This document shows, piece by piece, positions 38,120-40,738 of a DNA stretch of 64,000 nt (positions are counted from its first letter, which is position 1; every line of letters starts with the position of its first letter). Source of the stretch: Bacteroidales bacterium (GTDB lineage: Bacteria > Bacteroidota > Bacteroidia > Bacteroidales > UBA932); contig JAFQAR010000031.1 in the NCBI GenBank assembly GCA_017399905.1, positions 62,001 to 126,000 on the forward strand. The letters are read 5' to 3'. The translations under genes and the position numbers were made by a program. A model generated the notes under the pieces. The model saw only the letters and a program-made list of their open reading frames with translations. It did not search any database and was not told the DNA's origin.

Positions 38120-39064
38120 ATGCTATTGATTATGAAGAAAGATTTGAATGCTCTGAGTTTTTCAGAGAAGGAGAGTATTTGTGAAAGGATATTTATCAGC
38201 AACGGGCCATATTGGCACCTTTACACAGATGGGACAAAGATGCAGAACATCTTCCGCTGTGAAGATGACTTCAAGACCGGTATGTGGATTCTTGCCGCCT
38301 CTTTGCACATATCCAAAGGAGTGAAGGCTCTCACATTTGAATTGATGGGTAATCATATCCACCTGATCTTGGCAGGAGAACGTGAAGATTGCATCAATGC
38401 ATTTGAGATATTTGCAGCGAAACTCAGACTGGCATTCCCAAAGAGACAATGTGCCATAGACTGGAGCAAGTTTAAAATGGATATTCTGCCTATTGAAACT
38501 CTTCAGGCACTGCGCAATGAAATCATTTATACCAATCGCAATGCATTTGTAGCTAACCCAGCGTATACTCCAGACTCTTACCCATGGGGAGGAGGTTGTG
38601 CATATTTCAATCCTTGGCTCAAACATTTAAAGACTACACCCCTTGGAAATCTGAAAGTGAACATCCAAAGGGCACTCCTGCATACAAGAGATGTATCTCA
38701 GTTTTCGGAACTGATCGAAGTAGGTGGCATGCCCTTCATCCCTTCTTTCTGTGACATCAGTCTTGGAGAAAGCATGTTCAGGGACGCCCGAAGCTATTTC
38801 AATTCCCTCACCCGCAATGCAGAAACATTCAGCCAGATAGCATCCAGATTAAAAGACTCCATCTTCCTCACCGACGAGGAACTCTACTCAGTCATATGCT
38901 CACACATCAGCAAGGAGTACTCTGTCAAGGCACCCTCACAACTCAGCGCACAGCAAAAGATCGACACCGCCCGCCATATGCATTTCAGCTACAACGCCTC
39001 CAACCGGCAGCTCAAAAGAATGTTGCGCCTGGACCTCGCAGTCCTGGAAGAACTCTTTCCATAG
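38120..39064 (+). CDS. RAYT-type (REP-associated) HUH tyrosine transposase
   Basis: The 314-residue protein has the Y1 transposase signature LMGNHIHLIL (HIH is the metal-binding HUH). Further on comes a Tyr-bearing helix (RNEIIYTNRNAF) followed by the PDSYPWGGG motif known from the IS200-like Y1_Tnp family and RAYTs. RAYTs nick single-stranded palindromic REP DNA through a tyrosine and spread REP copies without IS-type ends. Five 28-bp palindromes lie directly upstream. The C-terminal helical extension is unassigned. Codon use is more AT-rich than flanking genes. ATG 38132 is an alternative start. Downstream the element abuts a glycosyltransferase fragment. Confidence 0.82.
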   Translation: MLLIMKKDLNALSFSEKESICERIFISNGPYWHLYTDGTKMQNIFRCEDDFKTGMWILAASLHISKGVKALTFELMGNHIHLILAGEREDCINAFEIFAAKLRLAFPKRQCAIDWSKFKMDILPIETLQALRNEIIYTNRNAFVANPAYTPDSYPWGGGCAYFNPWLKHLKTTPLGNLKVNIQRALLHTRDVSQFSELIEVGGMPFIPSFCDISLGESMFRDARSYFNSLTRNAETFSQIASRLKDSIFLTDEELYSVICSHISKEYSVKAPSQLSAQQKIDTARHMHFSYNASNRQLKRMLRLDLAVLEELFP

Positions 39065-39129: not shown

Positions 39130-39360
39130 TCAGCCCTTGATGGATATACGGTCCTTCGGGACAAAATAGTAGCGGACGAGGTCGGTCGCCACAGCCTCGC
39201 TTTCTGCGACGACATGGTCTGCCCTTCTCAGTTCCAGATGCATGCGGAAATGCAGAATATGCCTCCGCAGCCACCCGTAACGGTGGTCCCTGTCGCCAAG
39301 AAAGCTAAGGTCCCCCACCTCGAGGACCCTCCTTCCGGACTCGTCTCTGTAGGTCTTCAT
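39130..39360 (-). pseudogene. Glycosyltransferase family 4-like fragment
   Basis: This 76-codon frame starts at the ATG overlapping the yhcH stop (ATGA) and encodes a segment recognisable from GT4 enzymes. GDLSFL, then LRRADHVVAESEAVATDLVRYYFVPKDRI resembles the adhivavSe...vp.dkI region that normally lies near residue 100-160 of a 350-residue protein. The N-terminal Rossmann half and everything after the nucleotide-sugar domain are missing. The right end of the RAYT region begins 65 bases beyond its stop. I read it as a truncated remnant; a genuine small protein is less likely. Confidence 0.45.
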
Positions 39361-39785
39361 CAGACAACCTTCACCTTGAATATGGCCTTATGGATCACGC
39401 CCTCTCCGATAAGAGGGGCATGGGCCATGTCAGGAGCGAACGTAACGATATCTCCAGCTTCAGCAGAGACCGTCTCCTCTATCGGATCGTCAAAGAACAT
39501 GATGTCGTCAGACAGGTTCATCTCCCCGTCAGGGCTTGTACATGCACTGCGAGGCTTCACGCCATAGGTCTCACCCTTTGAAAGAGGCACCTGCACATCG
39601 ATATAGATATCATGCACCTCAAGGCGGGCCTCCTGCACCGGCCTCATCTTTCCGTCCACGATGTTCACGAAAAGATTGTAGCCGTCAAGCTCATGCCTTC
39701 CGTTCTCCAGCGCATTGAGGTCATGAGTCCTGATATACTCTATGGCCTTGGCATAATAAGGATTGTTCATCAGTCTTTCGTCCAT
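39360..39785 (-). CDS. YhcH/YjgK/YiaL family protein (DUF386)
   Basis: This 141-residue cupin-like protein belongs to the family of E. coli YhcH, part of the nan sialic-acid regulon, and EbgC. Matching signatures are GRHELDG-YNLFVNI, EVHDIYIDVQVPLSKGE and the metal-binding AGDIVTFAPDMAHAP. In this genome it is not in the nanA operon but 21 kb away, paired with a glycosyltransferase remnant that starts at its stop codon. It probably acts on a sugar-derived intermediate; the reaction is not established for the family. Length is typical (about 150). Confidence 0.85.
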   Translation of the reverse strand: MDERLMNNPYYAKAIEYIRTHDLNALENGRHELDGYNLFVNIVDGKMRPVQEARLEVHDIYIDVQVPLSKGETYGVKPRSACTSPDGEMNLSDDIMFFDDPIEETVSAEAGDIVTFAPDMAHAPLIGEGVIHKAIFKVKVV

Positions 39786-39823
39786 AATTCAGAGGATTTT
39801 GTGCGAAGTTAAGAAATTTGACT

Positions 39824-39831
39824 TATCTTTG
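39824..39831 (+). promoter_or_regulatory. -7 box (TATCTTTG) of the split tRNA-Leu
   Basis: An exact TAnnTTTG box ends ten bases before the tRNA 5' end. A TTTG at 39798-39801 lies 22 bases upstream, close to the usual -33 spacing. Confidence 0.75.
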
Positions 39832-39841
39832 CAACCGGATC

Positions 39842-40194
39842 GCTCTGGTGGTGGAATAGGTAGACACGCGGGACTTTAAAGGGCAACCTTGAAAAGTTGC
39901 CATTACAGAGTGCCTCAAAGGAAACTTTGAGAGTAGAACTCCCCTAACAAACGGAAACCTCGCCTGCAGAAATGCCGGCTTTGGCGACGGCTCACTAAAG
40001 TCAGCTCATGCTGATAAATGGCGTAGAGACTATACAGGGAGGGCCTAAACGCAGGACAACAGCGCATGGTCAAGAAATAGTCCAGACTACAACGGCTTAG
40101 CATTACGGATGAAGCCGGCTTGTGTAAAAGCAAGAGTAGCAAGAAAATCCCGTGGACAGAAATGTCCGTACGGGTTCGATTCCCGTCCGGAGCA
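39842..40194 (+). tRNA. tRNA-Leu(UAA) interrupted by a group I intron
   Basis: The exons are 39842-39876 and 40144-40194, 86 nt when joined. The acceptor stem GCTCTGG (39842-39848) pairs with CCGGAGC (40187-40193), followed by discriminator A; CCA is not encoded. The D-arm is standard. The anticodon stem CGGGA/TCCCG closes the loop CTT|AAAA, giving anticodon TAA, with the intron between anticodon positions 1 and 2. The long variable arm (GGACA gaaa TGTCC) and T-arm ACGGG TTCGATT CCCGT make it a class II leucine tRNA. It has its own promoter and terminator. Confidence 0.93.
39877..40143 (+). ncRNA. Group I self-splicing intron in tRNA-Leu(UAA)
   Basis: The 267-nt insert ends in G (40143) and follows a U, as group I introns require. 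The core is recognisable. GTAGAGACTATACAGGG (R, 40023-40039) and GAAATAGTCCAGACTAC (S, 40074-40090) form P7, with AGACTAT pairing ATAGTCC; ATAGTCCAGACTACA is near the textbook S sequence. Other helices are P2 GGCAAC/GTTGCC (39882-39887 with 39896-39901), a GAAA-capped stem CTCAAAG/CTTTGAG (39914-39931), P6-like TCGCC/GGCGA (39960-39987) and P9 GGCTT/AAGCC (40094-40116). P1 would be short: exon CUU with intron GGG, giving U.G at the splice site. There is no endonuclease ORF. Position and type parallel the cyanobacterial/chloroplast tRNA-Leu introns (IC3). Confidence 0.9.
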
Positions 40195-40197
40195 CGA

Positions 40198-40236
40198 AAC
40201 AGGCCCCTCAATTGACTGAGAGGCCTGTTTTTATTT
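40198..40236 (+). terminator. Terminator of the tRNA-Leu transcript
   Basis: AACAGGCC (40198-40205) pairs with GGCCTGTT (40222-40229), with a further CTC/GAG pairing inside, followed by TTTTATTTAT. Confidence 0.87.
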
Positions 40237-40261
40237 ATCCCTGGAGTAAAGGACCCTCCCG

Positions 40262-40738
40262 TTACCGGACGACCTTCCATCTCAGGCGCCAGACGCCGTC
40301 GGCATAGGAATGGCTTATTATCTTGAACTGACCTATTTCCGAGGTGTTCGACACGTGGGCTCCGATGCAGGCGCAGGCGTCGTAGTCTCCGATCCTCACA
40401 ATGCGGAGCGTCTCGGATGCGTCCTCGGGCAGCTTGCTGAGGTCGACGATGGAAGCAGCCTGGTCACGGGTGACGAACTCCACGGTCACATCAAGGCCGG
40501 ATGCTATGACTTCGTTGACCTTCCTTTCGATTTCAGCGACAGTCTCAGCCGACGGTTCCGCGTCAAGCAGATAGTCGCATTTGGATTTTTTCCTTTCGAC
40601 ATGCGCGTTCCTTGAACGTGGGCAGCCGAACATGGCCACCATAGTGGCGTTCAGCACGTGTTCGCAGGTATGGGAAGGCTCGTGCTCAAGCTTGTTATGC
40701 TGGTTCAGAACCGGAGCCTGGGTAACTTCATTCATCAT
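40262..40738 (-). CDS. AlaX-like tRNA editing domain protein
   Basis: The 158-residue stand-alone protein has the zinc-binding pattern of the alanyl/threonyl-tRNA editing (SAD) domain: HTCEH (23-27, HxxxH) and a later CACIGAHVSNTSEIG (CxxxH). It would hydrolyse mischarged tRNA, for example Ser-tRNA(Ala), in trans. The C-terminus ends WRLRWKVVR without the extra domain of larger AlaX forms. It is convergent with the tRNA-Leu and has its own promoter. An ATG one codon in (40735) is equally possible. Confidence 0.82.
   Translation of the reverse strand: MMNEVTQAPVLNQHNKLEHEPSHTCEHVLNATMVAMFGCPRSRNAHVERKKSKCDYLLDAEPSAETVAEIERKVNEVIASGLDVTVEFVTRDQAASIVDLSKLPEDASETLRIVRIGDYDACACIGAHVSNTSEIGQFKIISHSYADGVWRLRWKVVR

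Follow-up and report, generated by a model that had tools for sequence, protein, structure and literature searches.

How does a bacterium read UUA codons when just one tRNA-Leu(UAA) gene can be found in its genome and that gene is interrupted within the anticodon? This question is raised by a stretch of 64,000 nucleotides (nt) from a Bacteroidales bacterium (UBA932 in the GTDB lineage; GenBank assembly GCA_017399905.1, contig JAFQAR010000031.1, positions 62,001 to 126,000), referred to here as the window, in which a tRNA-Leu(UAA) gene at positions 39842-40194 on the + strand is broken after U34 by an insert of 267 nt. A first-pass annotation, made from the sequence alone, had proposed a group I intron splitting tRNA-Leu(UAA) in a Bacteroidota genome, and this proposal is borne out by the tRNA obtained on joining the exons, by covariation, by a model from which the window copy was held out and by P1 pairing. 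We are highly confident that a group I ribozyme intron occupies the anticodon loop of this gene, and that it belongs, as a copy lacking an endonuclease, to a divergent lineage that Rfam does not recognize. We call the lineage of the window intron type A and its sister family type B; L numbers denote loci and G numbers denote genomes of this analysis.

RESULTS

The split tRNA-Leu(UAA) gene

The 5' exon (39842-39876, + strand) comprises 35 nt and ends in C32-U33-U34 (CTT in the DNA), the intron (39877-40143, + strand) begins with T and ends with G, and the 3' exon (40144-40194, + strand) comprises 51 nt that run from A35 to the discriminator A. The exons were assigned by ARAGORN on the joined sequence, and the intron by covariation and the held-out model described below. 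When joined, the exons form an 86-nt tRNA that ARAGORN identifies as tRNA-Leu(taa). The unspliced gene is likewise reported as tRNA-Leu(taa) with an intron and is the sole tRNA in the window when introns are allowed; when they are not, ARAGORN finds zero tRNAs in the whole window. The CCA end is not encoded at the 3' end of the gene. The position originally given for the interruption, after the U of the anticodon, proved exact, and base 40143 is indeed the terminal G that had been described. A terminal G is likewise found in all 22 introns of a set of 30 related loci (see below) and in the aligned type A introns, where the intron of L039 conforms after its end was shifted by one base.

Fold and covariation of the group I core

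We analyzed an alignment of 33 type A cores, from which eight exact duplicates had been removed (L003, L038, L041, L045, L049, L062, L063 and L071) and four copies cut by the end of a sequence stretch had been left out (L053, L060, L064 and L067). The 55 modelled pairs, in 12 helices, are standard in 96.5% of cells. Changes on both sides of a pair are seen in 35 of the 55 pairs, compared to 25.1 ± 1.9 pairs in shuffled alignments (0 of 500 shuffles were as high) and 13-16 pairs when the structure was slid; counted by cell, there are 309 both-side changes, compared to 29-52 for the slid structures. These figures include L042 and L043, in which P8 is badly aligned. The compensatory changes point to selection on the fold.

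Two covariance models were built, R1 from 23 of the 33 type A rows and R2 from 12 sequences (seven from phages and five from Bacteroidales hosts), with the window copy and its 18-row clade excluded from R2. With R2, the window intron scores 154.3 bits (E 6.5e-27) over positions 39937-40092. Because of this held-out score and of the covariation relative to both shuffles and slides, we consider the assignment of the window intron to be far beyond chance.

The helix that would define the 5' splice site is formed by the exon strand ACUU (39873-39876), which pairs with GAGU (39908-39911) in the internal guide sequence GAGUGC (39908-39913) and places U34 in a U•G pair at the splice site. This P1, with four standard pairs and the U•G at the splice site, is found in 40 of the 40 type A loci examined, a count that includes some contigs fetched twice and leaves out L051 and L069, in which no 5' exon is in view. 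The guide co-varies with the exon: GAGU faces ACUU in the Leu and Lys tRNAs, while GGAG faces CUCU in the CUA tRNAs, with the phage introns that have the CUCU exon end carrying GGAGC instead of GAGUGC.

Downstream of the guide, all on the + strand, lie the P2 hairpin (39914-39920/39925-39931), with a GAAA loop and both-side changes in 7 of 7 pairs, and P3 (39939-39943/40037-40041), paired in 100% of cells with both-side changes in 4 of 5 pairs. The P5 stem (39962-39968/39973-39979), with a GNRA-type loop, also has both-side changes in 7 of 7 pairs; in the outer part of P5 (39957-39959/39983-39985), the outer pair is non-standard in 24 of 33 rows (A•C in the window) and is G•U in 8. Both-side changes occur in 4 of 5 pairs of P6a (40001-40005/40010-40014), 2 of 4 pairs of P8 (40042-40045/40068-40071) and 10 of 14 pairs of the P9 domain (40087-40090/40136-40139, 40093-40098/40112-40117 and 40119-40122/40131-40134). 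The strands of P7, the guanosine-site helix (40028-40032/40078-40082), and the S element, both of which had been pointed out in the first-pass annotation, are present in the window intron.

This core also bears on a different class of explanation, in which the insert is a tRNA intron of the protein-spliced (bulge-helix-bulge) kind or else resembles an IStron. Such an element would share with the insert only its location in the anticodon loop, and is contradicted by a group I core with P1, P3-P8 and a terminal G. The sole open reading frame (ORF) of at least 80 amino acids (aa) that overlaps the insert (39915-40280) is on the opposite strand and runs through the intron, the 3' exon and beyond. 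We regard the probability of this explanation as negligible. Since the intron has no + strand ORF of at least 80 aa, the window copy does not carry a homing endonuclease ORF.

Divergence from the Rfam group I model

Several results weigh against the reading of the insert as a group I intron in a sole tRNA-Leu(UAA) gene. An Rfam cmscan of the window returned no match at the gathering score, and a cmscan of 39742-40294 returned nothing at E values up to 1. Within the fold, P7 is invariant in 33 of 33 rows, P4 (39952-39953/39988-39989, + strand) has just two standard pairs, of which one is invariant and the other occurs as A-U, G-C and C-G, and P6 (39990-39992/40020-40022, + strand) has no pair with both-side changes; altogether 16 of the 55 pairs, P7 included, never vary and are thus beyond the reach of the covariation test. 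No P10 with the 3' exon is evident by eye in the window copy; a UUU/AAA P10 is possible, again by eye, in type B introns and in the copies of Lak phages. Finally, the genome is a metagenome-assembled genome (MAG) that is 81% complete, and tRNAs for Ala, Cys, Ile, Lys, Phe and Trp were all missing from those detected in it.

The first-pass annotation had looked to Infernal with the Rfam group I model for confirmation, which was not forthcoming at the window; it is the purpose-built R2 that finds the core. The Rfam model RF00028 (Intron_gpI) matched 0 of 9 type A loci and, because it matches none of them, we consider type A to be a divergent lineage. RF00028 does match two of three type B loci, at 52.9 and 51.8 bits with a cut-off of 50, and six type B loci reach 50-61 bits with R1, which indicates that the type A and type B cores are related; the two differ in P4-P6. 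Two weak RF00028 matches elsewhere in the window's genome (17 and 14.2 bits) were confirmed by neither R1 nor R2 and were rejected.

Group IC3 introns in the tRNA-Leu(UAA) of cyanobacteria and plastids lie between U34 and A35, end in G and are small. A recent transfer of such a classical trnL intron into Bacteroidales would explain the common gene and position, and the relatedness of the cores, apparent in the RF00028 and R1 scores of type B, would be in keeping with it. The window intron, however, has no RF00028 match and falls within a set of introns found only in Bacteroidales hosts (see below), and we judge such a transfer to be highly improbable. To judge solely by Rfam and by the tree of related introns, type A appears distinct from the cyanobacterial lineage. 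It had been suggested at the outset that the intron reflects either a transfer or a little-noticed lineage; the latter fits best, with type A present in Bacteroidales MAGs and phages and negative for RF00028.

Need for the split gene

The window's genome has intact Leu tRNAs with the anticodons CAG, TAG, CAA and GAG, and UAA is found only in the split gene. The search for a second tRNA-Leu(UAA), which had been suggested as a check, detected none in this genome; with the MAG 81% complete, another copy may exist. UUA codons are rare (34 of 19059) and are found in 22 of 45 mechanically chosen ORFs. The split gene may be needed for reading UUA, but the evidence is suggestive only because of the incompleteness of the genome and the several other tRNAs missing from it.

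If the insertion were dead or decaying, the gene would be a pseudogene and another tRNA-Leu(UAA) would do the work. Such a second gene could have escaped a MAG of this completeness, in which just 27 tRNAs score over the cut-off. The exons, however, are intact and yield a full tRNA on joining, the Leu 5' exon pattern has a single match in the genome, and the compensatory changes speak for selection on the fold. Moreover, the gene query has two matches in G052, a genome that is 98% complete, and both fall in a single interrupted gene. We consider the pseudogene explanation very unlikely, and favor a functional group I intron in the gene.

Filled and empty sites among relatives

A blastn search with the gene over its own and 100 related genomes gave matches in 58 of the 101, many of them to exons only. 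Among 30 loci from this set (own included), the intron is at the exact site in 22 and the site is empty in 8. Empty and filled versions of one site, as expected of a mobile intron, thus exist among relatives, and we rejected an assembly artefact because as many as 22 of 30 loci share this insertion site. The 22 introns comprise 5 of type A (L003-L007) and 17 of type B (among L012-L032), the latter in the same tRNA and at the same site in sister species, with the guide GAGUGC. We also observed that the tRNA-Leu body of type B hosts differs, with a D loop shorter by one base and a GAGGG stem.

Seven of the 22 introns are 725-747 nt long, and six of these have a full HNH-like frame while one has a broken frame; the Pfam HNH domain was found in both of the long-copy frames tested. 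The type A and type B HNH proteins are 53% identical over 159 aa. By eye, the type B intron of L031 retains a remnant of the HNH frame only. The HNH frames start downstream of the 5' splice site, ahead of the guide, and extend into or past P2. In L018, L022 and L032, the frame continues through most of the ribozyme core, and protein and ribozyme sequences therefore overlap in these three loci.

A gene of the YhcH/YjgK/YiaL (DUF386) family (39360-39785, - strand; Pfam PF04074) serves as a synteny anchor for the locus. It adjoins type A tRNAs in L007, L055, L060, L066 (= L106) and L071 and intron-less tRNAs in L014 and L017, and was not found in the sequence available around L004, L005 and L006 or around the remaining six empty loci. 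Farther upstream, a 314-aa ORF (38120-39064, + strand) has no Pfam match and shares 77-83% identity with ORFs found close to the type A tRNAs of sister loci; our guess is that it is perhaps a REP-associated (repetitive extragenic palindrome) transposase-like protein.

Distribution among Bacteroidales

The type A pattern was found in 29 stretches of bacterial genome contigs and 7 viral stretches. The 29 are labelled as Bacteroidales, Prevotellaceae, Bacteroidaceae, Paludibacteraceae, Rikenellaceae or Candidatus Cryptobacteroides merdavium, although the family labels are rough, since the cores of the 'Rikenellaceae' loci L046 and L056 occur letter for letter in G498 and G582 of the window's genus. 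The tRNA-Leu 5' exon is present in 27 of these stretches and the 3' exon in 25; the remaining copies are truncated where the stretch ends.

Within the genus of the window, a general core pattern matched 84 of 250 genomes, or 38 of 98 when only good genomes are counted, compared to 0 for the reversed pattern. In a sample of the phylum, it matched 1 of 395 genomes, the window's own, and in a sample of the order 3 of 393, own included, where the reversed pattern gave 1 match. These counts are lower bounds because copies with long P8 loops are missed, such as that of G056, whose intron is known from the 30-locus set. Thirty of the 84 genus matches were fetched and, in 30 of 30, both exons of a tRNA-Leu(UAA) flank the core. 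A letter in P7 divides the 84 into 16 type-A-like and 68 type-B-like matches, although this letter is only a rough label, as it is shared by G305, which scores 44 bits and lies outside type A. Two related introns were seen in other families of the order: a 239-nt intron in the tRNA-Leu(UAA) of G305 (L104/L135) and, by eye, an intron in G315 (L103/L136) after U34 of a tRNA with the loop CTTATAA, which is Ile UAU-like.

Phage copies and CUA tRNAs

Type A introns are found in viral tRNA-Leu(UAA) genes at the same position as in the window in L152, L157 and the phages Lak-C1 (L034) and Lak-B1 (L035). Based on ARAGORN analysis of joined exons, a type A intron also splits a tRNA-Lys(UUU) in phage L039, as well as five distinct CUA tRNAs (L033 = L038, the crAss-like phage cr115_1; L037; L040 = L041; L042; and L043). 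ARAGORN in its intron mode labelled the tRNA of cr115_1 as Ser(cga); it is a CUA tRNA when spliced at the guide-defined site.

The CUA tRNAs look able to re-read UAG and are candidate amber suppressors. The split CUA tRNA of cr115_1 (L033:2922-3222) carries no annotation and is followed, after about 270 bases, by the terminase gene (L033:3490-5532), the frame of which contains 7 in-frame UAG codons and has a terminase family match that spans residues 16 to 652. Similarly, a portal frame in L040 contains 14 in-frame UAG codons and has a portal family match. Reading through UAG opens clearly more frame than reading through UGA in L033, L037, L038, L040 and L043, with no clear gain in L042, L041 and L039. 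Read-through of UAA equals or exceeds that of UAG in L038, L039, L041, L042 and L043, and the frame-opening test alone is therefore no proof of recoding; the case for UAG recoding rests on the terminase and portal matches, which suggest it.

The tRNA-Leu(UAA) genes of Lak-C1 (L034:879-1640) and Lak-B1 (L035:871-1640) were seen to be split twice. In addition to the type A intron after U34 (340 and 348 nt, respectively), each has a group I-like intron in the D loop (308 and 309 nt; 38.7 and 38.9 bits with R1), and excision of both introns yields a tRNA that ARAGORN identifies as tRNA-Leu(taa). The tRNA-Leu gene of Lak-A1 (L036) appears by eye to be unsplit.

Viral contigs seem often to carry group I cores in tRNA genes, as a wider core pattern matched at least 120 viral stretches. 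Among the 120 viral matches listed (including L137-L254), ARAGORN reported tRNA-Leu(taa) for 56 and no tRNA for 18; its other labels are unreliable in these scans because the intron borders are approximate. The R1 model, applied to 118 of the matches listed, identified five as type A (>100 bits: L152, L157, L217, L240 and L248), with the other matches at 29-83 bits. Anticodon loops were also sought by script in 79 viral loci, but chance solutions were numerous and the results were set aside. Contigs from IMG/VR may be misassigned; L157 has phage-like genes (RNA ligase, CCA enzyme and endolysin), while the one ORF tried in L152 had no PHROG match.

Relationships of host and phage introns

Trees were constructed from 33 and from 36 type A introns, and in both the window copy falls within a starred set of 18 copies found only in Bacteroidales. 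The phage rows are spread over the remainder of the trees and do not form one clade in the best trees, although a single phage clade was not rejected by the approximately unbiased test (P value 0.248 for the 33-row tree and 0.129 for the 36-row tree). In the 36-row tree, phage L157 is placed beside host rows, and a 20-row host-only set of the 33-row tree is lost while the 18-row set is kept. Placements in these trees are unsure because of long branches. As the lineage is common to phages and hosts, exchange of type A between the two is likely.

DISCUSSION

The arrangement of the window intron points to the usual group I pathway. The precursor would fold such that the exon end ACUU pairs with the guide GAGU, with U34 in the U•G pair; a guanosine bound at P7 would attack after U34, and the freed U34 would then attack after the terminal G of the intron, resulting in an intact tRNA that reads UUA. 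The lineage would have moved among the tRNA anticodon loops of Bacteroidales and phages, with some copies carrying an HNH homing-type frame. Catalysis, splicing in the cell and homing are all activities that we infer from sequence comparisons.

If splicing does occur, Bacteroidales, mostly one large genus, join the bacteria in which a tRNA depends on a ribozyme. The coexistence of empty sites, plain introns and HNH-bearing introns provides material for the study of intron homing. Because the Rfam model misses type A, split tRNAs in phages and gut bacteria can easily escape notice. The tRNAscan-SE 2.0 program is described as not designed for group I introns, with 36 genomes affected for fMet or Ile2.

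The kind of element is known. Relative to the open-licence literature that we searched, supplements excluded, the lineage, its host group and its link to suppressor tRNAs appear to be new; no group I intron in a Bacteroidetes tRNA-Leu was found in that literature, although such absence is weak evidence. The string 'Bacteroid' is absent from a 2014 review (PMC3984707) and from a 2025 database paper, and a passage of the same review places all phage introns seen in protein-coding genes.

Recoded phages without a detectable suppressor tRNA have been described by Yutin et al. (PMC7886860) and in a 2025 paper (PMC12386605). This puzzle becomes testable in cr115_1, with its UAG-containing terminase gene and nearby intron-split CUA tRNA. 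A broader scenario, which we put forward tentatively and think rather doubtful, is that one Rfam-invisible lineage cycles between the host tRNA-Leu(UAA) and phage tRNAs, amber suppressors included, that it hides suppressors from gene finders and times UAG recoding by splicing, and that host and phage introns seed each other via the shared anticodon-loop target. If this were true, an intron that conceals suppressor tRNAs from gene finders would be a concrete answer to the recoded phages that lack a detectable suppressor.

Type A resembles the IC3 introns of cyanobacteria and plastids in gene, position, terminal G, P7/P8 motif and small size, but differs in having no RF00028 match, a short P4, another P4-P6 sequence, no evident P10 and Bacteroidales or phage hosts, as compared at the level of such features. 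Type B shares with type A the tRNA, the position, the guide GAGUGC and a related HNH protein, but has a different P4-P6 and scores above the RF00028 cut-off in two of three loci. Introns in tRNAs of Lak megaphages have been reported by Devoto et al. 2019 (PMC6784885), who tested them against Rfam and describe them as enigmatic and as new for phages; one is named there, in the tRNA-Tyr of the baboon phages. The tRNA-Leu of Lak-C1 and Lak-B1 shares with the window gene a type A intron at an identical site, while the Lak copies differ by long AT-rich insertions and by a further intron in the D loop. The crAss-like phages, which are linked to Bacteroidetes, have many group I introns in protein genes, according to PMC7886860; in contrast to these, the type A introns are in tRNAs, including CUA tRNAs.
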